35,086 nucleotides of DNA, taken from a virus. Shown one piece after another: positions 6,912 to 31,129 of the stretch. The stretch lies in the IMG/VR virus record IMGVR_UViG_3300032286_000535, positions 1-35,086 of that record; one strand, 5' to 3'. The notes beneath the pieces were generated by a model that was given only the letters and a program-made list of their open reading frames with translations, ran no database searches and had not been told where the DNA came from. Numbering within the stretch: position 1 is the stretch's first letter; the number at the start of each line of letters is the position of its first letter. Position numbers and translations under genes: made by a program.

Positions 6912-9900
6912 GCGGTTATTGAAAGAAACTGCGTTGCTGTTGCCGTCTTGAGTTTGTCGAGTTGCGCCAAACGCACATCTTTTTGCTCGGTGGTCAGGTT
7001 TGGACTGCTCTTGATCTGGCGCTCCAGTTTGGCCAACTCTCCCAGACGCTTTTGCACGCTGCCTGAGACGGATGCTGCGGCCAGCTTGTCGGAATACTCC
7101 TGAGCAAACGCCATTGCTTCAGCACGCTTGCCTTTTTCCACAAGGTCGTTGAACGTGCCCTTGACCTGCTTGATTTCGTTCATACGGTCGTAGGCTTCGT
7201 CCAACGTACCCCGGCCCTCGACAGGCTGGAACAAACCTCCGATGAACGGCTGCTTGCTGATCTTGGTTGTGGGCTCGGCAACTTCTGCCTTTGTGTCCGA
7301 AGCCAGTATTGGGTTGGCCAACTGCACCAACGCAATACCCAGCCCACCTGTGTACCCACGAATCAGATAGTCGATCGTGATGGGACTGAGCCCCACGTTG
7401 CCTGTTACTGCGCCAATTGTCTTGGCCAGCTCTGTGGAGTTGTCGCGGTAGCGCTGCGTAGCCAGCACGTCTTTCTCTCTGACGGACTCAATGTCGCCAC
7501 TGTAGAACGACTTGCCCAATATCGCCTCTGTGAGCGGTTTAACGGCTTGGGGCAGGCTCAAAGGAACAGTCTGCAAAGCCAGTTTGGACAGCCCGCTCAG
7601 CGCAGCATCCGCTTTGCCGTCTTGCATGGCCATGGCGTACACAGCTTCAGGCAACGCCTTGAACAAGAAGCCCATTTCAAACGGGATTGGTACGCGCACA
7701 GGCTCGTCAATACCGGGCACATACACAAACCAGTTGGCAAGGCGCTCTTCAGGCTTGGCGCGTTTGTAGGCTTCGTCGTCCTCCATCATGGCAGCGTAGG
7801 CAATCGTGCCTGCGGCCAGCATCAGACCACGGCGCACCATCTTGCCCCGGATGTCGAGCTGTTGGCTGTACGGCATGTCGCCCTTCATGGCGCGGTAGAT
7901 CACGTCCAGACCTTGCACCTGTGCGTTGAAGAACGGGATGAGCGTAGACAGTGCTTGCATGCTTGGCGACACGCCACGACGGCTGAAGTTCATCGACTCC
8001 AGTGTGCGCAGCAGCGCTTCTTGCTCAGACATACCCTTGGCCAGCGAGTCCTTGTAGATCACAGCGCGTGTAGCGGCATCGCCTTGCAGCGCAAACGTGT
8101 CGAGCATAGTCGTGGCTTTATCCCAGCCGGACTTGCCTGCTGACATGTCTTTCAAGAACTTGGCCATATCCTGCTCATCGCCGCTGTAGACGTTGCTGCT
8201 GATCGCGCCTGTTTCCATGAGCGTGCGCTCGGCGTCACTGCGGCCAGCGACCATTTTGGCCAGCTCTTTCATGGATGAGAGCACAGGCACCGCGTCACTG
8301 CCGGTTGTCAACCAAGCGTTCAGGGGATCACGGATGATCTGACGCACAGCGTAGGCAGGGTTACGCACAACGAACGAGCGCAGGATGTTGGCGGGCATGC
8401 CCAGCAGCTTGACGATGGCGGGCAGCGTGGTCTTGATACCCTCCATGCCGCGCACAATCAGCTCGGCCGGAATACCGTACGCATCGGTGTCGATCAAAGC
8501 GTAGTGCGGTTCGCCCTTCTTGAAGAAACGCACCACGTTGGCTCCTGTCGGACCGTTGCCCGGCGCTACGCGGCTGGCAATGCCCAGCTTTTGCAGCATA
8601 AAGGAGGTCTCCTTAACCGCTTGGTTGCGCAAGCCCATGCCAGTCAGCATGAACGTGTTCTGCGCAGCGCTGGTAAAGATCGGCAAGATGGCCGTGTTGC
8701 CACCAACCAGCTCTTTAAGCTGCGGCTGGTCTTTGATGTTGGCAATCCGCACTGGGCGCTCTTTGTCCACCATCAACTGCACTTCGCCGTTGTTGTTCAC
8801 CCGGTAGAAAGGCACGTAGCTGATTGCTTTGAGCTCGGCTACCTTACTGCCCGACAACGCGCCTGTCTGCGCAAGGAAGTCCAGCAACCCGGCGTTGTAC
8901 TGTTGGTACAGCTTGGCCGCTTCTTCAAACGCTTTCTTGGCGGTATCGTTGTTGTTCAAACGCGCAATGACAGCGTCGTACTCGGCCTTGGCTTGCTTGG
9001 GGCTAGAGAAGTTGAGCTTGTCCCAACCAACTTGCTGTGCACGCTTGCCTGCCATATATAACGTGAACATGTTCTCCTGCTCCACGTCGTTGGACAGCTT
9101 GGCCTTGTTGAGCGCCTGTGCAACGTCCACCATGGACGTACCCTTGGTGCTGCGGTATACCGTCTCAGCACCACCGTTCTTGCGTGTGATCTCAGCCTTG
9201 ACCGGACCATTGGTCAGGAACTGTCCAGCAAACTGGCTGCGCTGCTGGCCAAACCGCAGCAGGTAATTGGCGTTGGTAGCCTCCAGACTGCTGATAACGC
9301 CATCGCTCAAGCCCTTCTTGGTGGCGGCTTCCAAAGCTGCGTACTGGTCGACGAACTGCACGCGGCCTGCAAGGCCGAGCATGTTGCCCAGTATGGTGTC
9401 CACAATGCCCGGTTCACGCGCAACCACAGACGACGAGTTGACCTGCTTGCGGGCAAACGAGAACACACCTTTCTTGTCTTCTTGCACGCCCACATCCTTG
9501 GGAGCAAAGCGGCGCTCTTCCGGGGCTTCGGTAAACTCCGCGCCGTATGGCGGATCGCCCACGCGCTTGGGCGCAATCAATTCGCCTTCTGGGTACGCCA
9601 CTTCCTTACCCGTGGCAGTTTTTATTACCTCCGCCATTTTGTCAAAGGCTTCGCGGGAGTACTTGTTAAGCTCCAACACATCGTTTACGGCGGACTCAAA
9701 TGCCCTTTTGTAATCGTGTGTGTTTCTGTACGCTTGCGCCGTGTCGCTGTTGTTCAGTGCGTGCTCATACGCCTCGTACCCAAAGGTTTTTTCTAGCGCA
9801 TCAAAAAACTTTTTGAGGGCCGGTCTTGCAACCGACTGGTATGTTGCGTTTTTTTCCGGCGTATCTTCGCCACGTCTTGCACGCATCCTAGTGGAAAAAC

Positions 9901-12900
9901 CCATACCCTCCGCTTCCAGCACGTCATCAACAGCCTCCACCGCTTGAGATGCAAAATTCCGGGCTATGCTTTTTGTATCGTTTGCAACGGCGACGTATTT
10001 CGTGTCCGGCAAATCCAAAATCAACTCACCGTTTCCGCGAGCAAGCGTTACAAGATTAACAGTCTGCGGCCCTTCAATAACACCGTTTGCTTTTTCCCCA
10101 TGCCCCCGCACTTCGCCAACACGTGCATCTGGCGGAAGCACGAGCGTGGCACGCTTTCCCCCACCGTACACACTTCGGAAGAACAAAACTTGATTTACTG
10201 ATTTAAGCGCAGGCAATTCCAGTCTGCCTTCAAAAATATCAATGTCTTTAACGCTTTCAAAGTTAGGCAAAACAATTGCTTTAACGCGATCGCGGCTAAG
10301 AGCAGGCGTTGATATTGTTAACTCTTTTGCGGCTCTAAGCGTGTTTACAGTAGCTTTGTATTTTCTGCCAGCAAAATCCACTTCAAAGCCGCGTGTTACC
10401 GAATCAAAACCTACGCGAACATCTGAAAATACAAACTCGTTATTTTCGTAGGCATTGGTTGCCGCGTCAAAGTACTGATCTCCAAAAAACTTAACGACGC
10501 CATCGACAGGGCTTGGGCGGTTGCGGTACCCGTCAATTTTATTAAAGCGCAATAATCTATTTACCGCAGATTTATCTATTTCACCGTCGTTGTTTAGTGG
10601 GCTTTTTTTACCCAGCAAATCACTGACACCCAATTTTGTTTCGCCTTTAGCCAACTTGACCAACGCTTCACGGCGCTCAAACTCGGAAAGGTACTCATCC
10701 GCATCTTTAAACTTGTTTGAGCGTAGAAAGTTTGCAGCAAGTTGTTGCTGTGCAGGGTCAAGCGCTTGGTTAGGGTTGTTGCCGCGAACTTCACCAATCT
10801 GGTCTTGCCCATCCATGCGCACTGCAACTTCAGGACGCCCCTTGTTGTAGTAGACGTAAAAGTCACCGCTTTCAATTTGCCCCCGTGCATACTGCAAGTT
10901 GCCGCTGCCCGTACACCACGGCGTACCGGCACACGCTGCGTTCAATTCAATGGCTGCTTTTTCGAGGTTGTTTGCGCCCCCCTTAAACGGCAAGTACCCG
11001 CTTTCCACCAACGCCTCGATAACGTCATCAATGTTGTTGTGGCCTGCGTCGGGGCCAAATTCTAAGCCGTCGTTTACTGCCCTTGCTTCCGCTTCTGCAA
11101 CTTCTTCGTTGGTGTAAAGCGTAGTAAGCAGTGGGGTGTCATCGGCAGCTTGGTCAAACTTTTTCCAACCGTTCTTGCGCTCGTTGTTCTTGGCGTTGTC
11201 GTCTGCGTTTTTTTGCAGACCGTCCAAGAAGGCTTGCTTGAGGCCCTTGCCTGCACGCAACTGCTCGATGACCGCGTCGGCAGCTTCTTTACCCACCACA
11301 GAAATAGGGTGGCGGTTGTCTTTACCAATCTCGACAAGTTTCAAACGTCCGTTGCTGCCCGAAATAGCGCTGTATTTAGCCGCAGCTTTGAGCACCAACG
11401 CTGTTTCAACCGTTGTGTAGTTTTCGTAGTTCCCCATCAAATAACTTATCAAATTGAGGAAATCAGTTTTACGTTGGGACGCAATTATTTCGGCTTCACG
11501 TTCGCGCAACCTAGGGTCATTCACTGCTTGTAATGCAGCAAACGTAGCGGGGGTTGCCTCAACGTAGTGCAACGGGTTGTTCTCGTCGTACGTTTTGCCG
11601 TCCGACATGGTAATCATGCCCTTGTAATCCAGCGAGTCTGCTGTCGGCAACGCTACAACAGACTTTGCATCGTGCTCTGCTTGGATTCTTACTGCTTCGC
11701 TTTTAGGTCGAGGCGCTCCTATGTTGCGCGGCAGCGGCGACACGCTGCGCAACATCTCGTCGATCACATCGGCACCAATACGCTCAACGTCGTCAGGCGT
11801 GCGGTCCTTTTGTTTGATACGTTGGCCGAACTGGGCAGCAAACTGTTTCATAGAGTTGCTGCCGTCGTCCAGCGCAGCAATGTCCTTGGCCGACAAGCTG
11901 CGGGTAACGCGTGTCTCTTTGCGGCCCTTACCGACCTTGGCGCTTGCGGGGACAAACAACTGGTCGACCGCCACAACGGATGCACCGAACATGGTCTGCA
12001 CATTTTGCATGCCCAACATGCGCATGATGATGGACTTGACGCCTTTCCACGCATCCACCAAGCGCCACTGACGCTGGGCCAGTTGCTTTTGCAAGTTGCG
12101 GTTGGACATCACTTCGGCCACAAACTCCGACAAGCTGCTTTTGGCGTTTTTGCTGGTGATGCCTTTGTCGTTTTTAACGCGGGCGTGCAGCGCCTTCAAC
12201 TCATTGAGGGCCAGCTTCTGCTCTTTGGTAAGCGCATCAGGGTTTGTCTCAGACAACTGCACAACGCGCTCGGCTGCAGCGTGTGTGGCTTCGTGAAGCA
12301 ACGTCTCAACAGACAGACCGCCATTGCGGTTGAGCTCAATCAACTTGCTTGTGGCTGCGCCCAAGACTTCCGTACCGTCGTCAGAGCGCATGTCGTTTTT
12401 AATTTCGACTTTGGTGACATCGAGGAACGGCTCAAGACGTGCAGCAACAGCTTGGCTGAACTTATCTACCGCCGGGTCTTTACTGATCAGCAGCAGTGCG
12501 CCGCGCACATCGCCTTTTTCAAGCAGCGCAACCACGTCGCGGTTCAGCGCAATGCTTTCAGTCTCAACACCACGCAAGAAACGCTCTTCCTCACGGCCTT
12601 CTCTTTCGGAGTCAATACCTTCTTGTATGTCTCTGAGTGAGCCACGACGCAGGCGCACAGCCCTGTCTTCGGCAGCAGACTGCTCTTTACTTTCAGGCGA
12701 AGAGCTACGCAGTCGCTTGGGCGCGGATGATTGCTTGCGGGTAACTTGCCCTGTGCGTTTGGTTGGAATCGTCTGCTTACTCTGGGCCAGAGCGCCTTTG
12801 ACGTATTCAATCTGTTCTTTCAGCGTGGCCTTGTACTCAGGCGTGGTCTTGCCCAGCTCGAGGGCTTTGTCGTTCAGTGCTTCTGCCCTATTGCGCTGAA

Positions 12901-15900
12901 ACTCGGCCACTGCCGGGTCGTAGCGGCCGTACTCTTCTTTGAGCGCGGCGTAACGGTCAGTCTGCGCTTTCTCAAACTCCTTGTACTCAGCTTCTTCCAT
13001 GCCCAAGTCACGCGCCAGATCGCGCATCTTCTGGGAGGTTTCCGCTTCTTTGCGCACATCGCCCTTGGCAATACGCGTGGCAGTGGCCGCAGTGCGCGAC
13101 TTGGCTTTAGGCCCTTTGGCGGCTTCGTCAGACTCAAGAGCGCGCCGCTCCGCAATTGTGCTGGTCTTCTCAAGCGGCGTAGTTTCGTACAAGCTGTTGT
13201 ACAACTTTATGATCTGGTCACGGATAGGGGTAATCTGGCCTTCGGTCAGGCGGTACTTGTTGACCACGCCGTCAATGCGGCGCTGCAGGTCGAACCGCTC
13301 TTTGGCGTCCATCTGGCGCTCGGCCGGAGCTTCACCCTTACCCAGCTTTGCTTGCAGTGCAGCGGTCTTTTCGCGCAGATTGGGCGTAGCAATCCCGGAC
13401 TCCATTTGCGCCACCAACGCTGCGTGCTGCGCAGCCAAGTCTACGAGCTGCTCGTACAGAGACCTCTTGGCGTTACCTTGCTTGGTCGTGACTTTCTTGG
13501 ACAGGTCCTCAACGTCTTGCATGACGCGCTCGTACTCCACTGCAGCTGGACCGCCTTTGTCGTACAGGGCTTGCAGTTCGCGGTCGGGATACGTGCCGTT
13601 CTTGAACAGTGCTTGCTGACGGGCATCGTACAGTTGGGAGAACAGATCAGCGCGTTCGCGCTTGACGCTTTTGAGCCTTTCGCCGGGCTCACCGGTACGA
13701 GGGTCGATGGCTTTTTCATCACCGCCAACACCGGCGCGGTTCTCCAGCACATTGATCAGCTTCTCGCGCTCGCTAAGGTTCTGGTTGAGCGCTGCGCGCA
13801 ACGCCGTAGTGTTTGAGTGTGTGGCTAAGTCATTGAGGAGCTTGGTATCACCGTTCTGAATGGCCGTATTCATGATGTTGGCGGGGCTGAACAAGTCCAG
13901 CACAACTGGGCGGAACATACCGCGGCCCACTTCATCTTGCGCACGGGAGCCTTCGCTTTGCGCTTGATTGAGCGCATCTGCGGCAGCGTAAATTGCCTGC
14001 GTGTCTTTGGTTTTTGCCGCGTCTGTCAAAGCAGTTTGCGCAGCCGCTACCTTTTCGTTGGCAGCCTCGACCAGTTCCAGTTGTTTTGGCTTTATGCCTG
14101 TTTGTGCTTTAGGCTCAGGCATAGGCGTAATGGGCTCTAGCTGACCACGAGGACCAATTTCCGCCTCACCAAACGCTTGCTCGGCGGATGCCTTCTTTGC
14201 CTCTGGACCGTACAAAGCGCGTTGCTTTTCTTCTTCCAGTGTTTGCTGCTTGAGTTGTGCGTCTGTTTCAGTCGCAGCAGGGGCTGGAGCTTCTGCAAAC
14301 AAGTCACGGTTCTGGCCAGACTTGGTGCGGAAGTCATTAAGCTCTTGCAGGTACGGCGCACGGGCTTGCAACCCACGCACAACTTGGGCTTGCTTTGCCG
14401 CCGCATCAAAGTCACCGATTTCCAACAGTCGTAGGCGTTCTTTTTCAGCAGCGGCCAGCTTCTTGGCAAACTCCTGCTCAGTGTCCGTAACCCCACCGCG
14501 CTGCTCGATGATCGGAGCCATCTCCCCCATACGCGCCATGATCTGGCCGCGCTGCTGCGTCAACTGTGTCTGGGTATCGAGGTCTGGACCTGCTGCCAAC
14601 TGTTGCTCAACAGTGCGCACTTGGTTGCGCAGATTGTCGTACTCGTTCATCAGCCGTGAGGTGTCAGACAACTGGAACGGTTGTGCGCCGGGGATATCCG
14701 AAGGTAGCGGTAACTTAGCTGCGGGCTGGCCTTGCGCTGCTGCGGTCTCCAGCGCCGTCTGCTCGGCCATCTGCATCTCGTCAATCGCACCCTTGCGCTG
14801 CATGAACTCCTGCCGCAAAGGTTTGTATGTTGTCAGCAAAGCATCGCGCTGGGCTTTGAGCTTGTCGTACGCTTGCTTTTGCTCGTCCGTGGCCCCCTTC
14901 TTAAGCTTGGCCGCGTTGAGCTGCGCGTTCAAGGCTTTAAGCTGCTGATCCGCTGTGCGGAAGTCCGTGTCAAGCTGACGCAGGGCTTCAGGCGAATTCT
15001 TTGCAGCTTCGGCTGCGGCCGCAGCATCAGCTTGCTCTTTTTGCTGGCGCTCTTTTTCTGCAATCTCGGCACGACGGTCGGGTGACAAAAACCCGATTGG
15101 ACCTGCGCCCAGTGCGCCTGTCAGTGCTTCTTGCGTGGCTTGCCCTGCTACGCCGGTAAACGCATCTATGTCACGGCCCGTGCGCTGCAGTGCAAGGTTG
15201 GCCGCCAGTCTTTCTTGACCGCCCTGCAGACCTTCAAGCGGCATCTCGGCTGCGGCTGTTGCAATACCCGAAGCTGTGCGTGCGCCCAGCCGTTTGGCCA
15301 GTGCTTCTTGCACCTTGCTTGCAGCGCCGCGTGCTCCGCCGGGCAAAATACGTTCGACGCCGGTAGTACCTGCAGCAACACCAAGACCGGTGCCCAAAAG
15401 AATCTGGTCTGCGTTTTCGCTGATGTATGCCTGTGCACGTGCGGCTGCGGCGTTTGCCTGCTCGTCGGATTTGCCATCGGCTTTTTCAGCTTCCAGCACT
15501 GTGTCGTATATGTTTTGCTTGACTGCACCGGCACCCTGCGCTCCACCAATTGCGCCGCGAACGCCCATGATTGCGCGTGCACCAAGACCCAAAGCCGCCA
15601 GTGGCTTGGCCAAGAACAGCGTGGGGATGAGTGGGGCAAAAGAGCCGACAGCCTGCGCAGCGGACTGCAACGGAGCCTCAAACACGTTGCGGGCACCTGC
15701 TTTGATCTCTTCAAGGGTGGAGCCGGACGCCTCGGCTTTCTTCATGCGCTCGGCTTGTGCCTGCAACTCGGCTTTGCGGCTTGCGCTGAAGCCTTCTTGC
15801 AAGCTTTCACCGGCTCTACCAAGAGCGCGGGCAACTTCGTTATCGGCTCCGGCCGCACTGGCAAGTGCGCCAGTCGCCCCCAAAGCACCCAGACCGAACG

Positions 15901-16066
15901 AGCGAGCAATGTCGCCCAACCCAGAGCCCTTTTTTTCCGGCATAGGGGCCGGAGTCAGCAAGAACTGACGGCGTACCGCGCCCAGAATCTGTTCTTCAGA
16001 AGCGCCAACAGGACCCTCCACATCATAAATACGTCCATCTGGACCCTGTACGCTGTAAATGGGCAT
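6902..16066 (-). CDS. Giant polyvalent virion/ejection protein with HExxH metallopeptidase motif
   Basis: A 3054-residue protein. The ATG at 16066 has AGGA upstream; an extra 11 residues are possible from 16099 but lack a site. Order: a short SVQGPDGRIYDVEGP domain (~1-35); Gly/Ala-rich hydrophobic stretches (~40-260), as in membrane-penetrating ejection proteins; a very long charged coiled-coil region (~300-1200); a zinc-peptidase motif LHEATHAA (H1258, E1259, H1262) of polyvalent-metallopeptidase type; an AT-rich block (~1505-2155) with a conserved-looking WCTG (W1717) and solenoid-like strands (~1870-2020); and a C-terminal LPD38-like region (~2240-2930, with IPFFNAQVQG). Such proteins are thought to be packaged and injected with the DNA, acting in passage through the envelope or on host proteins. 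That role is inferred from family and from the neighbouring Gln/Ala-rich genes. It is the last gene of the late arm. Confidence 0.8.
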   Translation of the reverse strand: MPIYSVQGPDGRIYDVEGPVGASEEQILGAVRRQFLLTPAPMPEKKGSGLGDIARSFGLGALGATGALASAAGADNEVARALGRAGESLQEGFSASRKAELQAQAERMKKAEASGSTLEEIKAGARNVFEAPLQSAAQAVGSFAPLIPTLFLAKPLAALGLGARAIMGVRGAIGGAQGAGAVKQNIYDTVLEAEKADGKSDEQANAAAARAQAYISENADQILLGTGLGVAAGTTGVERILPGGARGAASKVQEALAKRLGARTASGIATAAAEMPLEGLQGGQERLAANLALQRTGRDIDAFTGVAGQATQEALTGALGAGPIGFLSPDRRAEIAEKERQQKEQADAAAAAEAAKNSPEALRQLDTDFRTADQQLKALNAQLNAAKLKKGATDEQKQAYDKLKAQRDALLTTYKPLRQEFMQRKGAIDEMQMAEQTALETAAAQGQPAAKLPLPSDIPGAQPFQLSDTSRLMNEYDNLRNQVRTVEQQLAAGPDLDTQTQLTQQRGQIMARMGEMAPIIEQRGGVTDTEQEFAKKLAAAEKERLRLLEIGDFDAAAKQAQVVRGLQARAPYLQELNDFRTKSGQNRDLFAEAPAPAATETDAQLKQQTLEEEKQRALYGPEAKKASAEQAFGEAEIGPRGQLEPITPMPEPKAQTGIKPKQLELVEAANEKVAAAQTALTDAAKTKDTQAIYAAADALNQAQSEGSRAQDEVGRGMFRPVVLDLFSPANIMNTAIQNGDTKLLNDLATHSNTTALRAALNQNLSEREKLINVLENRAGVGGDEKAIDPRTGEPGERLKSVKRERADLFSQLYDARQQALFKNGTYPDRELQALYDKGGPAAVEYERVMQDVEDLSKKVTTKQGNAKRSLYEQLVDLAAQHAALVAQMESGIATPNLREKTAALQAKLGKGEAPAERQMDAKERFDLQRRIDGVVNKYRLTEGQITPIRDQIIKLYNSLYETTPLEKTSTIAERRALESDEAAKGPKAKSRTAATATRIAKGDVRKEAETSQKMRDLARDLGMEEAEYKEFEKAQTDRYAALKEEYGRYDPAVAEFQRNRAEALNDKALELGKTTPEYKATLKEQIEYVKGALAQSKQTIPTKRTGQVTRKQSSAPKRLRSSSPESKEQSAAEDRAVRLRRGSLRDIQEGIDSEREGREEERFLRGVETESIALNRDVVALLEKGDVRGALLLISKDPAVDKFSQAVAARLEPFLDVTKVEIKNDMRSDDGTEVLGAATSKLIELNRNGGLSVETLLHEATHAAAERVVQLSETNPDALTKEQKLALNELKALHARVKNDKGITSKNAKSSLSEFVAEVMSNRNLQKQLAQRQWRLVDAWKGVKSIIMRMLGMQNVQTMFGASVVAVDQLFVPASAKVGKGRKETRVTRSLSAKDIAALDDGSNSMKQFAAQFGQRIKQKDRTPDDVERIGADVIDEMLRSVSPLPRNIGAPRPKSEAVRIQAEHDAKSVVALPTADSLDYKGMITMSDGKTYDENNPLHYVEATPATFAALQAVNDPRLREREAEIIASQRKTDFLNLISYLMGNYENYTTVETALVLKAAAKYSAISGSNGRLKLVEIGKDNRHPISVVGKEAADAVIEQLRAGKGLKQAFLDGLQKNADDNAKNNERKNGWKKFDQAADDTPLLTTLYTNEEVAEAEARAVNDGLEFGPDAGHNNIDDVIEALVESGYLPFKGGANNLEKAAIELNAACAGTPWCTGSGNLQYARGQIESGDFYVYYNKGRPEVAVRMDGQDQIGEVRGNNPNQALDPAQQQLAANFLRSNKFKDADEYLSEFERREALVKLAKGETKLGVSDLLGKKSPLNNDGEIDKSAVNRLLRFNKIDGYRNRPSPVDGVVKFFGDQYFDAATNAYENNEFVFSDVRVGFDSVTRGFEVDFAGRKYKATVNTLRAAKELTISTPALSRDRVKAIVLPNFESVKDIDIFEGRLELPALKSVNQVLFFRSVYGGGKRATLVLPPDARVGEVRGHGEKANGVIEGPQTVNLVTLARGNGELILDLPDTKYVAVANDTKSIARNFASQAVEAVDDVLEAEGMGFSTRMRARRGEDTPEKNATYQSVARPALKKFFDALEKTFGYEAYEHALNNSDTAQAYRNTHDYKRAFESAVNDVLELNKYSREAFDKMAEVIKTATGKEVAYPEGELIAPKRVGDPPYGAEFTEAPEERRFAPKDVGVQEDKKGVFSFARKQVNSSSVVAREPGIVDTILGNMLGLAGRVQFVDQYAALEAATKKGLSDGVISSLEATNANYLLRFGQQRSQFAGQFLTNGPVKAEITRKNGGAETVYRSTKGTSMVDVAQALNKAKLSNDVEQENMFTLYMAGKRAQQVGWDKLNFSSPKQAKAEYDAVIARLNNNDTAKKAFEEAAKLYQQYNAGLLDFLAQTGALSGSKVAELKAISYVPFYRVNNNGEVQLMVDKERPVRIANIKDQPQLKELVGGNTAILPIFTSAAQNTFMLTGMGLRNQAVKETSFMLQKLGIASRVAPGNGPTGANVVRFFKKGEPHYALIDTDAYGIPAELIVRGMEGIKTTLPAIVKLLGMPANILRSFVVRNPAYAVRQIIRDPLNAWLTTGSDAVPVLSSMKELAKMVAGRSDAERTLMETGAISSNVYSGDEQDMAKFLKDMSAGKSGWDKATTMLDTFALQGDAATRAVIYKDSLAKGMSEQEALLRTLESMNFSRRGVSPSMQALSTLIPFFNAQVQGLDVIYRAMKGDMPYSQQLDIRGKMVRRGLMLAAGTIAYAAMMEDDEAYKRAKPEERLANWFVYVPGIDEPVRVPIPFEMGFLFKALPEAVYAMAMQDGKADAALSGLSKLALQTVPLSLPQAVKPLTEAILGKSFYSGDIESVREKDVLATQRYRDNSTELAKTIGAVTGNVGLSPITIDYLIRGYTGGLGIALVQLANPILASDTKAEVAEPTTKISKQPFIGGLFQPVEGRGTLDEAYDRMNEIKQVKGTFNDLVEKGKRAEAMAFAQEYSDKLAAASVSGSVQKRLGELAKLERQIKSSPNLTTEQKDVRLAQLDKLKTATATQFLSITAQR

Positions 16067-16089
16067 GGCTAATTTCCTGAATTGTGAGT

Positions 16090-16110
16090 ACGCCAGCATG
16101 GCGCTGGCGT
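16090..16110 (-). promoter_or_regulatory. Hairpin in the leader of the giant gene
   Basis: ACGCCAGC (16090-16097) and GCTGGCGT (16103-16110) form a perfect 8-bp stem with a 5-base loop. It lies in the 57-base gap upstream of the giant gene start and clear of its ribosome site. On the plus strand it is followed by TATTTT, so it may act as a terminator against antisense transcripts. On the minus strand it could be an attenuator or a processing/stability signal. Confidence 0.4.
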
Positions 16111-20560: not shown

Positions 20561-22690
20561 TCAACGTCTGCCATCTGGTCGAACATCAATTCGCGAGACG
20601 CCCAACTGCCACTGCACACCAAGCCCCTCTGTCGGTGAGTTGAGCACCCCTGAGCTGACTTTGAACGCCATCTGTCGACCACGAATGCGGACGTAGACCT
20701 GCTCGGTGAACTGCTGGACGGCATAGGTTCGCTGGCCTGCATAGTTCTGGGTGCTGGTCACACTGGGGTTGTTGGATGCCCCGTAGTTGGCACCGGGGAA
20801 GGTGCGCGGGCGCACAGTGAAGTTTGCACTGGGGTTGTTGACGAACGAGCCGTCAAAGGTCAAGTCAGGAATCAACCGCCAGACAAATCCGAAATTGTGG
20901 CCATCGCCAATGTCGAAGTCGGAAGACTGCACGTAGGCCACGATCGGCGTTGTGGTGGCGTTGGCCCCGTCATCTGTGCCGTTCTCATGGTAGACCAGCG
21001 TGGTGCTGCCTTGGGTACGCGAGGACGTGGTTGTCGGTGCCCCGTAGGTGGACGCCAAAGGATAGCTGCGCAAAGAGCTGTCCAGCCATGCAGTGCGCCC
21101 TTGAGGGATGCCGGTGTAGTTGTTCCATGTACCGTAGTACCAGACGTTGTCCAAGTAATCAAAAATCACGTACCGGTCGGTGACGTTTGAGTTGGAAGAA
21201 CAGTATGTCCACCAGACTTCGCTGTAGCCCTCGTTGGTTCCAGAGTTGACTTGGAAGCCCTGCTGCAAGTTGATGTCCGTGAAAACGTACTCGCGCAGTG
21301 TGGACGGCAAGGATTGGACCCGACCCGTGTAAACATAGAACTTGTCCATGCCCATCCAATACACCACGTTGGATGCGACCGTCACTGCGTTGGGTCCGAT
21401 GATGGAGATGTTGTCCTCCAGCAATTGGAAACCCCAGACATACGGAGCCCCAAGGTACTGCATCGAGTACACGGCGCTGTCGGTGAACACCACAATTTCT
21501 TGCCGAGACTGGATGGCCGTATAGATGGCCGAGCCGTGGCTCAACCGGTAGTCGCCCGCTTGGTTGGTGATTGCAGGCGTCCAAGTGGCAAAGCTCTCTT
21601 GGTCGGACCAGCGAATCTGCATAGGGTCTACCGCAGATGTGGCGTATACCCCTGTTGGGTCGTTGGTGCCAAAGGCAATGATGAAGCGCGAGGCGTCCGA
21701 CACGATGACGTAGTTGGCAGCAGACGGGCATGTGGCGTCAATTGACACGGTTGTGGAGCCTGACCCCGCGCCGTTCTTCACAGTCACGGAACCACTCGCC
21801 ACAAGCAGCTGTGCTCGGTCGTAGATCGTTGGGGTTACGTTGGCCGCCCACAAATAAATGCCGCCACCGCACGGGTTAAAGATCAGGTTTTCACCAAAGT
21901 TGGACTCGCTCCAAAACCGCAAGTTGACCCCCACTCCGGTGGCAGCTGCTTGACCCCAGCCAGTGGACGGGAACCCTGTAGTCACACCGCCCCAGCCGCC
22001 CGCGCCCCAGCCAGAAGCTACCGCGTAAATGTCGTTGCCAGAGCTGAGCTCGTAGTTAAACGTCGCCGTGGCGGCAGACGTACCCGAAGAAGTGGCGGCG
22101 GTGGCCACAGTGATGGTGTACGTGTTGGCGTCAATGACGGTAACCTGATACATCACAGGCGCAGCTGTAGTGCCCATCGTCGCCGCAGGGATACCGTTGA
22201 CAGCGCCAGAGGTGGCTGTGACTGTGACGAAGTCGCCAGTCTGTGCGCCGTGCGCCGGGTCGTTTACCGTCACAACGCGGGAAAGGTTGACGGTGGTAAA
22301 CGCATTGGCCACAGTAGTGCGGGTCAAGCGAATGGGCGTCACATCGTAGTACGAACCGTTGACGCCGTCCTGAATGTAGAACTTCAGGTTGGTGCCAAAG
22401 GACAGCAGGTTGCTGCCCGTCAACGTGACCCAGTTCCACATCGAACGGCAAATGCCCCACAACGTGCCAGACGGAGGGGTCGGCATTGTGGTGGCGTACG
22501 CAGTGCCGTAGGTAGCCACCGTGGCCACGTTAGGCGACACAGCGCCAGAATCCTTTACCCAGCCACCGAGCTTCTCTGGTTGCCCCGAACGAAAACGAAT
22601 TTTGTCCGACTCATACCACCCACCTTCGTTGGCGTACGACGTGTTTTCACGGTTTACCCCGGGACGAAGGAGGAGCTTTTGGAGCGGCAT
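20561..22690 (-). CDS. Large beta-rich head-closure/tail protein (packaged-DNA stabilisation-like)
   Basis: A 709-residue protein almost entirely of beta strands, with many Thr/Gly/Trp residues and few charged helices. It opens LLLRPGVNRENTSYANEGGW and continues with KIRFRSGQPEKLGGW, a start seen in many uncultured podovirus-like phages. Repeated Trp/Tyr-containing strands (for example WGAGGWGGVTTGF, VVYWMGMDKFYVYTG, SEVWWTYC) suggest a beta-propeller or barrel. In P22-like phages a beta-propeller protein (gp10) closes the head and stabilises packaged DNA; a similar role is plausible here but rests on architecture and position, not residue identity. It lies between the lysis cassette and the ejection module. 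A tail-spike-like role is the alternative. Confidence 0.5.
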   Translation of the reverse strand: MPLQKLLLRPGVNRENTSYANEGGWYESDKIRFRSGQPEKLGGWVKDSGAVSPNVATVATYGTAYATTMPTPPSGTLWGICRSMWNWVTLTGSNLLSFGTNLKFYIQDGVNGSYYDVTPIRLTRTTVANAFTTVNLSRVVTVNDPAHGAQTGDFVTVTATSGAVNGIPAATMGTTAAPVMYQVTVIDANTYTITVATAATSSGTSAATATFNYELSSGNDIYAVASGWGAGGWGGVTTGFPSTGWGQAAATGVGVNLRFWSESNFGENLIFNPCGGGIYLWAANVTPTIYDRAQLLVASGSVTVKNGAGSGSTTVSIDATCPSAANYVIVSDASRFIIAFGTNDPTGVYATSAVDPMQIRWSDQESFATWTPAITNQAGDYRLSHGSAIYTAIQSRQEIVVFTDSAVYSMQYLGAPYVWGFQLLEDNISIIGPNAVTVASNVVYWMGMDKFYVYTGRVQSLPSTLREYVFTDINLQQGFQVNSGTNEGYSEVWWTYCSSNSNVTDRYVIFDYLDNVWYYGTWNNYTGIPQGRTAWLDSSLRSYPLASTYGAPTTTSSRTQGSTTLVYHENGTDDGANATTTPIVAYVQSSDFDIGDGHNFGFVWRLIPDLTFDGSFVNNPSANFTVRPRTFPGANYGASNNPSVTSTQNYAGQRTYAVQQFTEQVYVRIRGRQMAFKVSSGVLNSPTEGLGVQWQLGVSRIDVRPDGRR

Positions 22691-25207: not shown

Positions 25208-25834
25208 TTATGGTGTGCCGTAGGCGGTCACGTTGCCAGTGACAATCATGTTGCCCGACGAGTCAATTGAATATTTTGCAACACCGCTATAACTAAAAAC
25301 CAGTTTGCCGCCCGATTCGGCGACCGTCCAGTTTGTGGTGGCAAGCGATCCTGCTGTACCTGACGTATTGCCTGTGACGTTGCCAGTCACGTTGCCAGTC
25401 ACGTTGCCAACCAAGGTCCCGACCAAATGATTTTCAGCTACAAAGATGTCTGTGCCGTTGCTGACCAGTACCATCTTCTTGCCGTTGGGGACCGAGATGC
25501 CGGTCAGGCCGCTGACTTTCACCGTGACTGCAAAACCGCCAGTCGTGTTGTTGAAGATGAAGTACAGCTTTCTGTTGGCAGGAACCACCAAGTTTCGAGC
25601 GGCGGTCAATGCGCCGGTGCATTCAATAAACATGTTCCGGGCAACGCCTGTGGCACCGTTGGGGATTGTGATCGTCGTGTCCGCGCCATCCGTGATGGCT
25701 TGGGTGACGTACCCGGAGATGGCCTGCTCGATCAGCGTGCCAAGGTTGGTGTTTGTCGAAGAGCCCCAAGAGCCTGCTTGGTCACCTGTGCCGATCAGTT
25801 CGATCGCAAGGTTGGTTGAATAGGTACTAGGCAT
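25208..25834 (-). CDS. Tail-fibre-like protein with GNVT repeat
   Basis: A 208-residue protein. The N-terminus reads STYSTNLAIELIGTGDQAGS and WGSSTNTNLGTLIEQAISGY, a domain that recurs at the start of many phage fibre proteins. Beta strands continue to residue ~135. Next come tandem GNVT units (VGNVTGNVTGNVTGN), encoded by a 12-bp DNA repeat at 25374-25409, as in trimeric fibre shafts. A short C-terminal part (KLVFSYSGVAKYSIDSSGNM) closes with another GNVT. It probably builds part of a receptor-binding fibre; this is inferred from repeat style and location. No chaperone or peptidase domain is visible. Confidence 0.65.
   Translation of the reverse strand: MPSTYSTNLAIELIGTGDQAGSWGSSTNTNLGTLIEQAISGYVTQAITDGADTTITIPNGATGVARNMFIECTGALTAARNLVVPANRKLYFIFNNTTGGFAVTVKVSGLTGISVPNGKKMVLVSNGTDIFVAENHLVGTLVGNVTGNVTGNVTGNTSGTAGSLATTNWTVAESGGKLVFSYSGVAKYSIDSSGNMIVTGNVTAYGTP
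25374..25409 (-). repeat. 12-bp tandem repeat coding for GNVT
   Basis: Three adjacent 12-bp units: GTGACGTTGCCA once, then GTCACGTTGCCA twice. A further copy of GTCACGTTGCCA lies at 25227-25238 in the same gene. On the minus strand the unit codes for the four-residue GNVT shaft motif. Copy-number change would keep the frame. Confidence 0.85.
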
Positions 25835-25856: not shown

Positions 25857-27380
25857 TTACGTCGTGTTTACTAAAACCCAATCGGTGGGTTCATCCGTGT
25901 CGGCAGCACTCCAGCCCGGTGCTTGCTGTGATGGGACATTTTGCCAGCCCGGTGTTTGCGTATCGTTAATTGGGGTCCAGCCCGGGGGCTGGTTGGTTCC
26001 CACTGGTTGCCACCCGGCACTCTGCGCATTTTGAATTACAGCCCATGCAGCAGCCTGAGCGTCGTCAACAGAGGTCCAGCCCGCAGCCTGTGGATTGCTC
26101 ACATTTTGCCATCCGGGAGTCTGACTGTCCACAATGGCGGTCCAGCCTGCGGATTGAGAACCGTCGACCACAGTCCAGTTTGCCGTCTGAGTGTCGGTGA
26201 TGTTTTGCCAGTTGGCATCTTCAAAGTCGTCAATCAGCGTCCAGATATTGATCGAAGCCAACAAGGACCGGACAAATCCAGTGGCCGTGACACCAGAGAT
26301 TGCTAACGTGACAGGGACAGCTCGCGACACCGAGCCAACAGAGCCAGTGGCCGTGACACCGGACAACCCAACAGTTCGGCTTGTGCTGATGCTGCCTACA
26401 GAGCCCGTTGCAGAAACGCCAGAAATACCGACGGCGCGGCTTGAATTTACTGACCCAGCCGATCCTGACCCGGTAACGCCGGTAATTGAAAGACTGACAG
26501 AAACTGCGACTGTGCCAACAGGAGACACGCCGCCCCAAGGACTTGCACCCCAGCCCAACCCGCCCCAGCCCGTACCAGAGGACACCCCGGTAAGAGCTTG
26601 TGTAAACACCCCTGAAACGCCGACCGTACCTGCACTCCCGGTAGCTGTGTTGCCATTTTCAGAAACTTCGAGCGAAGGTGTTAAAGAGCCAGTCGATCCT
26701 GTGGCTTGGACGCCAGAAAGCGTTCGAGGATATGAAGCAATGACCGTACCCGCAGCGCCAGTAGCCGCGACGCCCGTCAGACCCACTGTGCGACTTGAGC
26801 CAACACTGCCTACGCTACCCGTGGCAATGACGCCATTTTCCTGATTGGATACGGCTGCCAGCATTGAACCAGCAGAGCCGGTGGCCGTGACACCTGACAG
26901 CGCAACCAAACGCGCTCCAACAGCAACCGTGCCCACGGAGCCTGTAGCGGTAACACCGGAAATCCCAACTGCACGACTTGGGCTCACGGAGCCCACGGAC
27001 CCGGTGCCAGCAACCCCAGAGATGCCGACAACAGCCGAAGGCGTAACAATGCCAACTGGAGACGTGCCACCCCAGCCCCCACCACCCCATCCCGGGAAGC
27101 CCCAGCCATAGCCTGCGATAACACCTGTCAGTGCCTGCGAAAACGCACCAGAAGCTGAAACGGTGCCAGCTGAGCCTGTGGCTGCAACTCCAGACAGCCC
27201 CACGGTGCGACTAGAGCCGACAGAGCCTACAGAGCCAGTACCGTTTACACCGGTGAGTGCAGCACTTTTTGAGAAAGACGCCGTAACATTGCCGACAGGC
27301 GACGTGCCGCTCCAGCCCTCAAGGCCCCAGCCAAGAGAGCCCCAACCTGTTCCAGAGGAGACGCCAGAAATTTCAGGCAT
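25857..27380 (-). CDS. Repeat-built Gly/Ser/Thr-rich fibre-like protein with Trp-repeat tail
   Basis: A 507-residue protein made almost wholly of repeats. Residues 1-379 carry ~20-residue units of the form GVxATGSVGSVxxSRxVGLS, interrupted three times by a Trp/Gly module (GTGWGSLGWGLEGW; GYGWGFPGWGGGGW; GTGWGGLGWGASPW), each leading to SPVG. Residues 380-507 are eleven exact-length 11-residue units, each beginning with Trp, plus a partial twelfth. No known enzyme motif occurs, and charged residues are rare in the first part. Such proteins usually build elongated beta structures on tails or act as surface-binding appendages. It lies between tail-type structural genes. The two repeat classes in one chain suggest a shaft plus a separate terminal domain; that is inference. 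Confidence 0.65.
   Translation of the reverse strand: MPEISGVSSGTGWGSLGWGLEGWSGTSPVGNVTASFSKSAALTGVNGTGSVGSVGSSRTVGLSGVAATGSAGTVSASGAFSQALTGVIAGYGWGFPGWGGGGWGGTSPVGIVTPSAVVGISGVAGTGSVGSVSPSRAVGISGVTATGSVGTVAVGARLVALSGVTATGSAGSMLAAVSNQENGVIATGSVGSVGSSRTVGLTGVAATGAAGTVIASYPRTLSGVQATGSTGSLTPSLEVSENGNTATGSAGTVGVSGVFTQALTGVSSGTGWGGLGWGASPWGGVSPVGTVAVSVSLSITGVTGSGSAGSVNSSRAVGISGVSATGSVGSISTSRTVGLSGVTATGSVGSVSRAVPVTLAISGVTATGFVRSLLASINIWTLIDDFEDANWQNITDTQTANWTVVDGSQSAGWTAIVDSQTPGWQNVSNPQAAGWTSVDDAQAAAWAVIQNAQSAGWQPVGTNQPPGWTPINDTQTPGWQNVPSQQAPGWSAADTDEPTDWVLVNTT
25860..26243 (-). repeat. 33-bp coding repeat: eleven Trp-initiated 11-residue units
   Basis: Read on the minus strand, the units are WTLIDDFEDAN, WQNITDTQTAN, WTVVDGSQSAG, WTAIVDSQTPG, WQNVSNPQAAG, WTSVDDAQAAA, WAVIQNAQSAG, WQPVGTNQPPG, WTPINDTQTPG, WQNVPSQQAPG and WSAADTDEPTD, then a partial WVLVNTT. 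Trp is invariant, Gln at position 8 is nearly so, and period length never varies. DNA copies are diverged, so the array is old or selected. Confidence 0.9.
26244..27377 (-). repeat. Coding repeat region: GVxATGSVGSV units with three GWG modules
   Basis: About 60-bp units code for a ~20-residue motif GVxATGSVGSVxxSRxVGLS. Three GWG-rich modules stand near 27299-27358, 27058-27117 and 26517-26580. Units differ at synonymous and some amino-acid positions. The array fills the first three quarters of the gene. Confidence 0.8.
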
Positions 27381-27406: not shown

Positions 27407-27862
27407 TTAAGCGATGTTAATCAGCGCAGTGCCCGGAGCATTGCTGGGCATGGTCAGTGTAAACGTACCAGCAGTCACGGTCTGAGAGCCGAAAGTATGA
27501 ACGCTGACGGCTTTGTTACCTTGTGTGCTGTTGTAGATCAGCACAGCGTCAAACGCAGTGGATAAGGTCACGGTGGTGTAAACCAAGCTCGCTGACGGCG
27601 TCCAGTAGCCTGTGGTGCCCCCGGTAGCTGGCGCGGTTCCGTTGGTGACGTTGATGCCACCTGCGGTGTAGTTTGTGCCGGTCACTTCACCCGTGGTGCT
27701 GTAGACGGTAGTGGTAGCGTTGACGGTGGCCGAAGCCAAGTACAAAGCTGCTTTAAACGTGTCCGCAGTCGCTGCGGCACGGATTGGGGCTGCGCCAAAG
27801 TTGTGCGTCCCCGTCAGGATTTCACCCTTGAACGAAGTACACATTGCTTGTGTGTTTGCCAT
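27407..27862 (-). CDS. Phage structural protein (paralogue of the 28065-28490 product)
   Basis: A 151-residue beta-rich protein. It starts ANTQAMCTSFKGEILTGTHN and has FKAALYLASATVNATTTVYS followed by TTGEV and YTAGG. The closing strand set is SVHTFGSQTVTAGTFTLTMP and ALINIA. It aligns along its whole length with the gene at 28065-28490 (shared FK.ALY, TT.Y.TTGEV, Y.AGG, a C-terminal F.L..P and I.IA). It has a good AAGGAAA site. Probably a minor virion or tail component; no known catalytic residue. Whether the two copies occur in one structure is not known. Confidence 0.65.
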   Translation of the reverse strand: MANTQAMCTSFKGEILTGTHNFGAAPIRAAATADTFKAALYLASATVNATTTVYSTTGEVTGTNYTAGGINVTNGTAPATGGTTGYWTPSASLVYTTVTLSTAFDAVLIYNSTQGNKAVSVHTFGSQTVTAGTFTLTMPSNAPGTALINIA

Positions 27863-27873
27863 GATTTTTTCCT

Positions 27874-28065
27874 TTACGCGATGGCTGCGGCAACGCCGTC
27901 AGCAAATACGTTCTTCTTCAAGTGAACGTGAACAGAGCGGTGGACCAATTCGCCTTCGAGCCAGTACTCCACCCACTTCGTGATCTCATGGTCATTATCG
28001 ACTGCGCCCTCGCGCTTTTCAAGCAGGGCTTCGTCCATTTCGCCTTTGGTAGTGGTTACAAGCAT
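27874..28065 (-). CDS. Small conserved acidic/aromatic protein
   Basis: A 63-residue protein: VTTTKGEMDEALLEKREGAV, then EITKWVEYWLEGELVHRSVH and a C-terminal KKNVFADGVAAAIA. It is a short beta-sheet-like domain with paired Trp/Glu and His residues. It starts within the last base of the upstream gene stop (TAATG) and precedes the paralogous structural gene by 11 bases, so it is embedded between the two copies. No family is recognised. The close linkage suggests an assembly partner of these structural proteins, which is inference. Confidence 0.6.
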   Translation of the reverse strand: MLVTTTKGEMDEALLEKREGAVDNDHEITKWVEYWLEGELVHRSVHVHLKKNVFADGVAAAIA

Positions 28066-28490
28066 TACGCAATCCTTATGATGGCCGAGGTGTTTGAGAC
28101 GGCTGGGAACTGCACGGTGAACGTGGTGGAGGAGGACTTGTCAGACCCGAAGTCCAAGACGCACACAGCCGGGTTACCCCCGCCGCTTTGGTAGATCAGA
28201 GCACCACGCGCCGTGATTGCACCGGTCCAAAAGGCATTGCCAAACGAGACATACACCGTGGTGCCCGAGCCGCCCGTTGTGGGGACCTGCGTGACGGTCA
28301 AAGCCAGCCCACCTGCCGCGTAGCCTGCTGCCACGACCTCGCCAGTGGTGGTGTATGCCGTGGTGGCTGCGTCAAGCGATGCAGCGTTCGTGTAAAGGGC
28401 AATCTTAAACGCGCCGGACGTGAAGTTGAACGTCCCGTTCATCATGCCCGTTTTGAACGAATTGCACGAAAAGTTTCCTGTGAAAGCCAT
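28065..28490 (-). CDS. Phage structural protein (paralogue of the 27407-27862 product)
   Basis: A 141-residue protein. The ATG at 28490 is used, because a preceding TTG is less likely and the stop of the upstream gene shares a base with this ATG (TGATG). It has NFSCNSFKTGMMNGTFNF, AFKIALYTNAASLDAATTAY, TTGEV and YAAGG, with a C-terminal CVLDFGSDKSSSTTFTVQFP. The layout is the same as the neighbouring copy but shorter in the middle. The upstream connector-like gene and the downstream copy both point to a virion role. No enzyme motif is seen. Confidence 0.65.
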   Translation of the reverse strand: MAFTGNFSCNSFKTGMMNGTFNFTSGAFKIALYTNAASLDAATTAYTTTGEVVAAGYAAGGLALTVTQVPTTGGSGTTVYVSFGNAFWTGAITARGALIYQSGGGNPAVCVLDFGSDKSSSTTFTVQFPAVSNTSAIIRIA

Positions 28491-29188
28491 CAAGTCACCG
28501 CCTGTCTGTATTGGCCAGACCGGTAACTGTCCTGTCTCTCAAGGCCGTCGGCCAGACGTTTGGCCAGAGCAAGCGCCTCTTTGTACTTGCCATCGTAGAC
28601 AGCAAGCAGGTCAGTCTCACCTTTCATAAATGTGTAAGCCTCAACCAAGGAGCCATACAACAGCACGGTGTCAAAGTTGTCGCCCAGCCAAGTCGTACCT
28701 GCTGTCACGATGGACTCAGGGTAGTAGTAATAGTGCAGCTCCACGACGTAGTTTGCATCTGGCTTTGGGCCAAGAATGAACGACAGCTCTGTCGTGATCA
28801 CGCCACCTGCTGTGGTTGTCGGGCCAAACAGTGCGTAATATTTAGGCAGTCCAACGCTGGAGGGGTTGGGGTACGCCTCGCGGATGAAGTTCACATCCTT
28901 ATTCAGCAAGTAGTTGTAGTTGCCCGAAGCGTCTATGGCCGCCAAGGAATACACCGACAAAAAGTCGTTTGGCGACGACAGGTACGGCGTCGTTGTCGAG
29001 ACCAAGCCCGTCACGTTCTTGCGCACCGACGGGAACTGCATCGAGTTGTAGATGCGCTGTTCTGCTTGCTTGATGAAGGTGTTGATCTGCGTCGCTGCGG
29101 ACACAGTTGAGCCATCAGCCAAGTACACCACCGGGAACTGGTTCTCGGTGTAGGTCTGGATCGAGTTAAACAACTCGGTGTAGTTCAT
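28490..29188 (-). CDS. Head-tail adaptor/connector-like protein (copy 1)
   Basis: A 232-residue protein. The N-terminal helices read NYTELFNSIQTYTENQFP and FIKQAEQRIYNSMQFPSVRK. A beta-rich middle follows (GLVSTTTPYLSSPNDFLSVY; ELSFILGPKPDANYVVELHY). A C-terminal helical bundle, LLYGSLVEAYTFMKGETDLL, leads to YKEALALAKRLADG and SYRSGQYRQ. This order matches SU10-like or T7 gp11-like adaptor proteins that join the portal to the tail. The same order is found, weakly, in the gene at 30023-30724. It overlaps the upstream gene by four bases (ATGA) and shares one base with the downstream start. The function is inferred from fold-level resemblance. Confidence 0.65.
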   Translation of the reverse strand: MNYTELFNSIQTYTENQFPVVYLADGSTVSAATQINTFIKQAEQRIYNSMQFPSVRKNVTGLVSTTTPYLSSPNDFLSVYSLAAIDASGNYNYLLNKDVNFIREAYPNPSSVGLPKYYALFGPTTTAGGVITTELSFILGPKPDANYVVELHYYYYPESIVTAGTTWLGDNFDTVLLYGSLVEAYTFMKGETDLLAVYDGKYKEALALAKRLADGLERQDSYRSGQYRQAVT

Positions 29189-29633: not shown

Positions 29634-30023
29634 TTATGTCGTCACAATCGTGACTGTACCAATTTGCACACCCATTGCCAAGCTGTTCGGCGTCAGAGCG
29701 GCATCGAAACCACTGGACCCACCAACCGGGTTCCAGCCCCATTGAAAGATTCGGCTACCACCGCCAGACTGGCCATCAGCCAAAAGTCCAGAGATGACGT
29801 AGCTGCGGTCCGGCCGCGGGTTGCGCACGCCTTGCGGGTCATCCACCGGGAACATGCCCAACTGCAGCTGTGGCTGATCAGGGTCCCAGCAAGACGCGCA
29901 TACCAGCAGGTTGTACGTCTTGGTCTTGATGACCTCTTTGCGCAGCTCTGTGAGCTTGTAGCGCGCGCCGCACCGATCGCACTCGGCAATCGAGTTTTTA
30001 CCGGACGAAAAGCGGTTGCTCAT
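29634..30023 (-). CDS. Zinc-ribbon phage protein
   Basis: A 129-residue protein. Four cysteines in two CxxC pairs, C15/C18 (ECDRCGARYKLTEL) and C42/C45 (CASCWDPDQPQ), form a likely zinc ribbon. LGMFPVDDPQGVRNPRPDRS follows, a sequence style I associate with a small conserved protein of related phages. The C-terminal half is Gly-rich and less ordered (GGGSRIFQWGWNPVGG). It begins within the stop codon of the connector-like gene (TAATG). It may be a structural or assembly factor; no catalytic residues are apparent. Confidence 0.65.
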   Translation of the reverse strand: MSNRFSSGKNSIAECDRCGARYKLTELRKEVIKTKTYNLLVCASCWDPDQPQLQLGMFPVDDPQGVRNPRPDRSYVISGLLADGQSGGGSRIFQWGWNPVGGSSGFDAALTPNSLAMGVQIGTVTIVTT

Positions 30024-30724
30024 TACATCCCACCACCAATAAACTGTCGACGCGGAACAAAGCGCACAGCGGCCTTCTCGCGGTCCTCAGAGCTGGCCAA
30101 GTCCCATGCCTCGTCATACTGCTGCTTCAGAATGCCCAAGCGCTCTGTGCCGCCGGGAATCTTCAAGGCCAAATAGTACGACAGACCCGCAACCATGCAG
30201 GGGATGAACCGGAACGGCACGTCCATGGTGTTCACGCCCCCGCCTGCGTCTTGGATGCGCTTGAGCCGCCAGTACACGAAGGTGTATGTCTGGGAGTTGT
30301 CTGGCACTGGCCAGACGGTGATGCGCGGAGCGTTCTGCAAACGCTCAATCCAGACCTGAATGGGCCGGGCCTGCTGGAGCTTGTTGGGCAGCGTGGCGTA
30401 AGTTGACACGCTGATGCGCGTGATTGTCAAATCTGCCTGCGTAGCCGCGTTACCGGCACCGGTGCGAATGACGTGCTCCAGCAGGTCGACCGTGTCGGCG
30501 GGCAAGTTGTAGGTGGCTGTCCCGGGGACCAGTGTGATCGAGCCTTGCTCGAAGGTCCACATGTTGACGCCCCGGTTGGCCCAGTCCGCAAAAAGCAGGT
30601 TCAAAGACCGGCGTGCGGTCCTCAAATCGTAACCTGAGCGCATCTCAGAACCGGCGCGTTCAAACGCCTCCTCGACGAGTTCCGTCAAGTCAAGGTTGAA
30701 GGCGGCAGTTCCAGAGGTTGCCAT
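30023..30724 (-). CDS. Head-tail adaptor/connector-like protein (copy 2)
   Basis: A 233-residue protein. The N-terminal helices, LDLTELVEEAFERAGSEMRS and YDLRTARRSLNLLFADWANR, are the hallmark of a widespread phage connector family. A beta-rich part with ITLVPGTATYNLPADTVDLL and VWIERLQNAPRITVWPVPD follows. The C-terminal helices are PFRFIPCMVAGLSYYLALKI and LGILKQQYDEAWDLASSED. It probably sits in the neck between portal and tail. The overall order is as in the gene at 28490-29188, suggesting two distantly related adaptor proteins. It ends in TAATG coupling with the zinc-ribbon gene. Confidence 0.7.
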   Translation of the reverse strand: MATSGTAAFNLDLTELVEEAFERAGSEMRSGYDLRTARRSLNLLFADWANRGVNMWTFEQGSITLVPGTATYNLPADTVDLLEHVIRTGAGNAATQADLTITRISVSTYATLPNKLQQARPIQVWIERLQNAPRITVWPVPDNSQTYTFVYWRLKRIQDAGGGVNTMDVPFRFIPCMVAGLSYYLALKIPGGTERLGILKQQYDEAWDLASSEDREKAAVRFVPRRQFIGGGM

Positions 30725-30727
30725 ACG

Positions 30728-31129
30728 TTACTCCGCAGCAGGTACTTCGACGGGTGTCTCAACCGGGGCTGCTTCAACCACTGGAGTTTCGACTGGAGTT
30801 TCGACTGGAGTTTCGACTGGAGTTTCGACCGGAGTTTCGACTGGAGTTTCGACCGGAGTTTCGACTGGAGTTTCGACCGGAGTTTCGACTGGAGTTTCGA
30901 CCGGAGTTTCGACCGGAGTTTCGACTGGAGTTTCGACCGGGGCTTCTTCAACCACTGGCGCAGCAGGGGCCTTGGGCTTGCGCGTGCTGACCTTGATTGT
31001 GAAGTCGCCATCGGGGGCAGTGGCCAGCTCGTCAAGCAGTTGTTGCACGTCTTCGCCTACGTGGCCAAGAGCGCTGAGCTGGTGGCGTGCTGTCATTTCA
31101 GCGCACATGCGCATGGTTTCTGTCTTCAT
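30728..31129 (-). CDS. Small protein with a VETP tandem-repeat tail
   Basis: A 133-residue protein. The ATG at 31129 has AGGAG before it. Residues 1-48 form a compact helical and strand domain ([11 protein letters not shown]-like helix, then [16 protein letters not shown] and [10 protein letters not shown]). From ~65 onward the chain is thirteen VETP units, then [17 protein letters not shown]. The repeat is acidic and Pro-rich, so an extended, stiff, TonB-like spacer is expected. No membrane segment or catalytic motif is present. It lies one step upstream of the connector-like gene. The head domain is not recognised; a spacer or decoration role is inferred. Confidence 0.65.
30783..30938 (-). 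repeat. 12-bp tandem repeat, 13 copies, coding for VETP
   Basis: Thirteen GGAGTTTCGACY units (plus-strand reading) follow each other. The base before each GG is T or C, giving Pro codons CCA or CCG. The order T,T,T,T,C,T,C,T,C,T,C,C,T shows partial 24-bp alternation, as expected from slippage copying two units at a time. All copies keep the VETP frame. Confidence 0.95.

Follow-up and report, generated by a model that had tools for sequence, protein, structure and literature searches.

Tryptophan repeat arrays beside phage tail-fibre genes occur in counts that divide twelve: a candidate fibre-docking strap

Introduction

A protein encoded in an IMG/VR virus record (the window, meaning the whole stretch of DNA that was analysed, 35,086 bases) ends in an array of tryptophans spaced exactly eleven residues apart. 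What is such an array for, and what sets its number of units? Although many environmental short-tailed phages carry the repeat, it has no family name. The question bears on the way in which trimeric fibres are joined to six- and twelve-fold tails, and it offers a case of a protein repeat number that is seemingly locked by symmetry instead of drifting.

The array and its gene neighbourhood

The array gene lies on the minus strand of the window (25857-27380) and encodes an uninterrupted protein of 507 residues. The tryptophans stand at residues 380, 391, 402, 413, 424, 435, 446, 457, 468, 479, 490 and 501, the final one six residues from the C-terminus. All 12 tryptophans of this 128-residue stretch fall in one phase of 11, which was matched by none of 20,000 shuffles of the window protein. 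A preliminary description of this DNA had counted eleven periodic 11-residue units plus a partial one. This count is correct, with the full units running from 26243 down to 25881 and the partial unit, WVLVNTT, at 25880-25857 up to the stop; counted by Trp the array has twelve, and twelve is the number that proved to matter. The same description placed Gln near position 8 and often Gly at the end of the unit, and indeed Gln occupies position 8 in 9 of the 11 units (Glu in the other two) and Gly occupies position 11 in seven, while position 4 is Ile or Val in 10 of the 11 units. The DNA copies have a mean identity of 0.48 (best pair, 0.67), and TRF detected no DNA repeat of the 11-residue period at the window array. 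Agreement among the copies is 0.60 at second codon positions versus 0.38 at third positions; second positions agreeing far more than third fits purifying selection on the protein and bears out the earlier claim of a selected protein pattern on diverged DNA.

Three Trp triplets with a spacing of 5 (W13/18/23, W93/98/103 and W272/277/282) lie in scaffold residues 13-282 (window 26535-27344). Several relatives of the array protein start with a motif resembling these triplets, in which Phe or Tyr sometimes replaces Trp.

Table 1. Features of the window around the array gene.
Feature	Position	Strand	Remarks
Probable nozzle-like virion protein	20561..22690	-	phrog_3287; nozzle role inferred
Tail-fibre protein, N-terminal motif STYSTNLAIELIGTGDQAGSWG	25208..25834	-	directly downstream of array gene; near-obligate neighbour
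C-terminal array, 12 Trp at exact 11-residue steps	25857..26243	-	residues 380-507, to stop
N-terminal scaffold of array protein	26244..27380	-	~20-residue 'GVxATGSVG' repeats and three Trp clusters
phrog_644 protein	27407..27862	-	PHROGs; AlphaFold2 fold weakly like 8jou_a
Second phrog_644 paralogue	28065..28493	-	PHROGs
SU10-type adaptor protein	28490..29188	-	PF24175, E 1.3e-20
Second SU10-type adaptor-family protein	30023..30724	-	PF24175, E 9e-12

The array gene is located between SU10-type tail adaptors and a fibre gene (Table 1), and a tail-fibre assembly protein is also encoded near it in the window. Among the relatives, adaptor homologues are found upstream in 150 of the 162 loci with room for them, and phrog_644 in 196 of 212. 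These neighbours (adaptors, phrog_644 and a fibre gene) place the protein in a phage tail or fibre module. The AlphaFold2 model of the phrog_644 protein (pLDDT 87.7) has 8jou_a as its closest PDB fold, a weak match (prob 0.95, E 0.068, TM about 0.5), and the window adaptor matches the SU10 adaptor in the PDB weakly (7z47, E 0.37). Elsewhere on the minus strand, thirteen copies of a 12-base repeat with 94% matches (30780-30937) encode an (ETPV)n tract towards the C-terminal end of a small protein, whose gene lies immediately upstream of that for the second adaptor. Positions 6902-16099 encode a 3065-residue protein with an LPD38 domain.

Database searches and relatives

The window array is not covered by any family in Pfam, PHROGs or NCBIfam, and neither the window protein nor its array gave a match above the cut-off, in line with the initial view that this is no named repeat. 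The sole Pfam model matched widely by the arrays was the Spt5 C-terminal nonapeptide repeat (PF12815), so no described family of the same period was found. PF12815 matched 27 of 47 array fragments with E <= 1 (best, 1e-8) and gave no match to the window's own array. A T-P-x-W composition is common to both, but the Spt5 repeat is eukaryotic and has a nine-residue period, whereas the period is 11 in the window and its relatives; the reading of the arrays as Spt5 repeats was rejected as a compositional look-alike. Searches of the PDB with the array (including a profile) and with the scaffold found no homologue, only chance matches such as xylanases and antibodies. PDB searches with the fibre and the phrog_644 protein found no homologue either, and no PDB entry shows the array together with the fibre.

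Relatives were collected by pattern scans of IMG/VR viral contigs, and loci were counted among the matches listed. At least several hundred phage proteins in IMG/VR contain the repeat W..[IV]...Q, and it almost always forms their C-terminal end; in closed frames, 4-8 residues follow the last Trp as a rule. The consensus of 589 units from relatives reads W, variable, variable, I/V, D/N, D, S/T/A, Q (86%), T/S, P/A, N/G, and these units are very polar except for Trp and Ile/Val. The array is joined to varied scaffolds ('GVxATG' repeats, 'SExxTAxD' repeats and others) of 1 to about 1650 residues. The gene of locus L467 is almost pure array and the scaffolds of L384 and L062 are tiny, which suggests that the array has a task of its own.

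A genome collection gave 113 pattern matches, mostly chance or low complexity; the true arrays there (L408, L412, L415, L431, L433, L467 and L502) are probably phage sequence within genome assemblies. A tblastn search against cultured phages found a recognisable array in one phage only. The cultured relatives comprise DSL-LC04, Pelagibacter phage HTVC023P (gp68) and 023Pt_psg01, with repeat numbers, k, of 4, 3 and 2, respectively. In all three the array protein lies directly upstream of the same fibre type as in the window and is annotated as hypothetical only; in HTVC023P, which carries phrog_644, array and fibre genes, the Gln is replaced. Phages of the HTVC023P type have been described as Podoviridae (PMC9599517). 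Structural work on the array proteins of the cultured relatives was not found in the literature searched.

The repeat number is limited to divisors of twelve

Strict counting, in which a Trp is required every 11 residues, covered 166 arrays among the matches listed and gave k = 3 (35), 4 (70), 5 (1), 6 (56), 10 (1) and 12 (3), so that k was 3, 4, 6 or 12 in 164 of the 166. In the single "5" (L177), a sixth Trp is displaced by one residue from the regular spacing, and in the single "10" (L015) two further Trp lie beyond an insert, for a total of 12. Such an insert (LLLENGNRIQLENSSGDITLE...) follows unit 10 in both L015 and L553, where the total is still 12. Arrays with k = 2 were added by a sample that was anchored on the final two Trp, and a scan for at least seven Trp returned a dozen 12s and no 7, 8, 9 or 11 among the matches listed. 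In the corrected tally of 281 loci among the matches listed, k is 4 (105), 6 (76), 3 (46), 2 (38) or 12 (14), which places 279 loci in {2,3,4,6,12}; the remaining two have ten units (L268) and five or six (L467).

Some 20 of these loci were corrected by eye, a subjective step, for slipped units, weak scores or Trp replaced by Tyr, Phe or Glu, and the uncorrected strict count already shows the rule without these corrections. One or two of the sixes (L068, L173) reach the contig end and may be longer, and L156 has k = 2 by script and six units by eye. Loci in which Tyr or Phe stands for Trp (L323, L667-L669, L672) likewise have 4 or 6 units. Locus L315 has two adjacent genes, each with a terminal two-unit array. 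Only L268 (57-983) clearly departs from the count rule; it consists of ten units in alternating near-identical 66-base DNA repeats, which points to recent expansion or mis-assembly.

A second sample was keyed to the fibre: 79 loci were picked solely by the fibre N-terminal motif, with no selection on Trp, and about eight contigs were shared with the earlier set. The array gene lies upstream of the fibre in 76 of the 79, usually about 11 bases off, and is thus tied to the fibre gene. The repeat number in these arrays is 4 (36), 2 (18), 3 (14) or 6 (8), and none of the 76 has k = 1 or 5. A smooth curve from 4 to 6 would predict about 39 fives in the pattern-scan sample, where none was found among the matches listed, and about 17 in the fibre-keyed sample, where none was seen. 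The repeat number is limited to divisors of 12, and k = 1 was never seen, though 1 divides 12. No comparable count rule turned up in the literature searched (open-licence papers).

These counts bear on the earlier suggestion that the tryptophans form a ladder binding sugars or cell-wall polymer. Tryptophan often binds sugars, and the protein does belong to a tail module. However, a ladder predicts nothing about repeat number and leaves the quantised counts unexplained, the array is tied to a fibre gene, and its units stay conserved between phages with fibres that diverge beyond the N-terminal domain. The ladder is therefore not supported and appears very improbable, and the preliminary reading as a whole is partly supported.

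Rapid switching with constant partners

On a FastTree phylogeny of 205 adaptor proteins, k changes at least 82 times, a number inflated by tree error and gene exchange. Among adaptor pairs at least 90% identical, k differs in 19 of 36, mostly as 4 versus 6. Between L018 (k = 6) and L117 (k = 4), for example, identity is 98% for the adaptors, 97% for the phrog_644 proteins and 100% over 82 residues for the fibre N-termini. The repeat number therefore switches rapidly while the partner proteins remain alike. Differences of one unit between relatives were also observed (2-3 and 3-4), and those of 3 versus 4 imply that five is reachable by mutation.

Could the allowed numbers reflect mutation history only, through doubling or growth in fixed blocks of 2, 3 or 6, with no selection on the total? 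Internal two-unit and six-unit similarities in L187, L268 and L022 would agree with such growth. Against it stand the one-unit differences between relatives, the fives, eights, nines and tens that block growth alone would also yield, and the changes on the adaptor tree, at least 82 of which land on allowed k. This explanation is considered highly unlikely. Within k = 6 arrays, unit similarity peaks at lag 2 and is lowest at lag 3; the idea that this period-2 likeness marks alternating sites was set aside, since duplication in allowed steps explains it equally.

A possible fibre-docking strap

The array is strictly periodic, sits at the C-terminus, and is tied to both fibre and adaptor genes. 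From these observations and the counts, a fibre-docking strap of short-tailed phages is proposed, in which chains of k units must tile a twelve-fold ring without remainder, a proposal to which we give an even chance. Each 11-residue unit, W..[IV]...Q..., would form one docking position on an extended chain end that may be unfolded on its own. The fibre made from the adjacent gene would use its N-terminal domain to grip the array Trp, akin to the way SU10 fibre chains bind the dock loop of the nozzle, and the docking positions would be arranged around a twelve-fold part of the tail, such as the portal or adaptor ring. The twelve positions would then be occupied by 12/k copies (1x12, 2x6, 3x4, 4x3 or 6x2), while chains of 5 or 7-11 units would leave gaps and be selected against. 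Twelve is the simplest total for these positions, because the least common multiple of 2, 3, 4, 6 and 12 is 12 and because 8 and 9 are absent; a total of 12 matches the portal and adaptor rings. We infer the Trp-fibre contact, the twelve-fold ring and the product of copy number and k partly by analogy with SU10. The more general claim, that repeat copy number is set by symmetry, so that relatives switch among 2, 3, 4, 6 and 12 repeats (six, four, three, two and one chains) while the total stays twelve, is one towards which we lean slightly.

The number twelve might instead be inherent to the array and not to a partner ring. Twelve array units could close into a ring or barrel, whether they come from a single 12-unit chain, two 6-unit chains, three 4-unit chains, four 3-unit chains or six 2-unit chains. 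Such a closed ring would give the same rule of divisors of 12, would account for long arrays ending at exactly 12 (among the matches listed), and, as a packed structure, would make the strict 11-residue spacing easier to understand. However, AlphaFold2 modelling of a natural 12-unit chain as a monomer with 46 relatives gave no strands and no confident fold (pLDDT 65, pTM 0.24), and the polar character of the units, Trp and Ile/Val aside, also argues against a packed ring, which is judged unlikely. The same model lends no support to the beta-solenoid or fibre tip suggested at first, and is a weak negative since the chain was modelled alone, without oligomer or partner.

Several points also count against the fibre-docking strap. 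With a trimeric fibre and one Trp per chain, twelve Trp would correspond to four fibres, which is awkward on a six- or twelve-fold tail. It would also be unusual for close relatives to differ in chain number over a range of 1 to 6, the absence of k = 1 goes against a plain divisor rule, and the ten Trp of L268 and the five or six of L467 are contrary cases. If the strap is correct, it would represent a new way of handling the symmetry mismatch between tail and fibre, and the count rule would provide a sequence-only readout of virion stoichiometry, with k giving 12/k chains per virion.

Comparison with SU10 and GP4

The closest precedent comes from phage SU10, in which the portal and adaptor are dodecamers, the nozzle is a hexamer and the fibres are trimers (PMC9509320). 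A nozzle loop carries Trp839, Trp847 and Trp857, each of which binds Ile24 in one fibre chain, and residues neighbouring these Trp clamp the fibre chain before each Trp (PMC9509320). Like the array, the dock loop of SU10 gp17 presents several Trp spaced along a single extended chain, and SU10 is likewise short-tailed and has an adaptor of the same family. In contrast, the dock loop (WSDFQEITWDDPSIKELVW) has only three Trp, with spacings of 8 and 10, and lies inside a nozzle loop instead of at a C-terminus; it has neither a tandem 11-residue unit nor a quantised count, and no evident homology to the array. The array forms the C-terminus of a separate protein, with the nozzle-like protein of the window encoded by its own gene, and has 12 Trp per chain in the window and 2, 3, 4, 6 or 12 in relatives. 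Compared by eye, the fibre N-termini of SU10 and the window have no evident likeness.

This precedent admits a further reading, in which every set of three Trp would hold a single trimeric fibre, on the SU10 pattern, and the Trp number would set the fibre number. One SU10 loop does dock a trimer with three Trp (PMC9509320), and the array and fibre genes are near-obligate neighbours. However, the commonest repeat numbers in the fibre-keyed sample are 4 and 2, k = 9 is absent among the matches listed, and units of k = 6 arrays resemble each other most at lag 2 and least at lag 3, a pattern that duplication history could also cause. Docking in threes is rated quite improbable.

A second comparison is with Ralstonia podophage GP4, where a chain of the fibre I and fibre-tail adaptor entry (8jou) is the best, weak fold match of the window phrog_644 protein (E 0.068). 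An 8jou chain has been described as a dimeric fibril linking an adhesin to the tail collar (PMC13243795). No GP4 chain in the PDB was matched by the array profile or the scaffold. GP4 reportedly has two dodecameric adaptors, as well as fibres in which a rope protein threads bead proteins together; the window, too, has two PF24175 adaptor genes. The fibre collar of GP4, in contrast, is reportedly 15-fold. By analogy, the array protein could be a rope for beads of the phrog_644 type, but the almost pure array of L467 argues for a task of the array's own.
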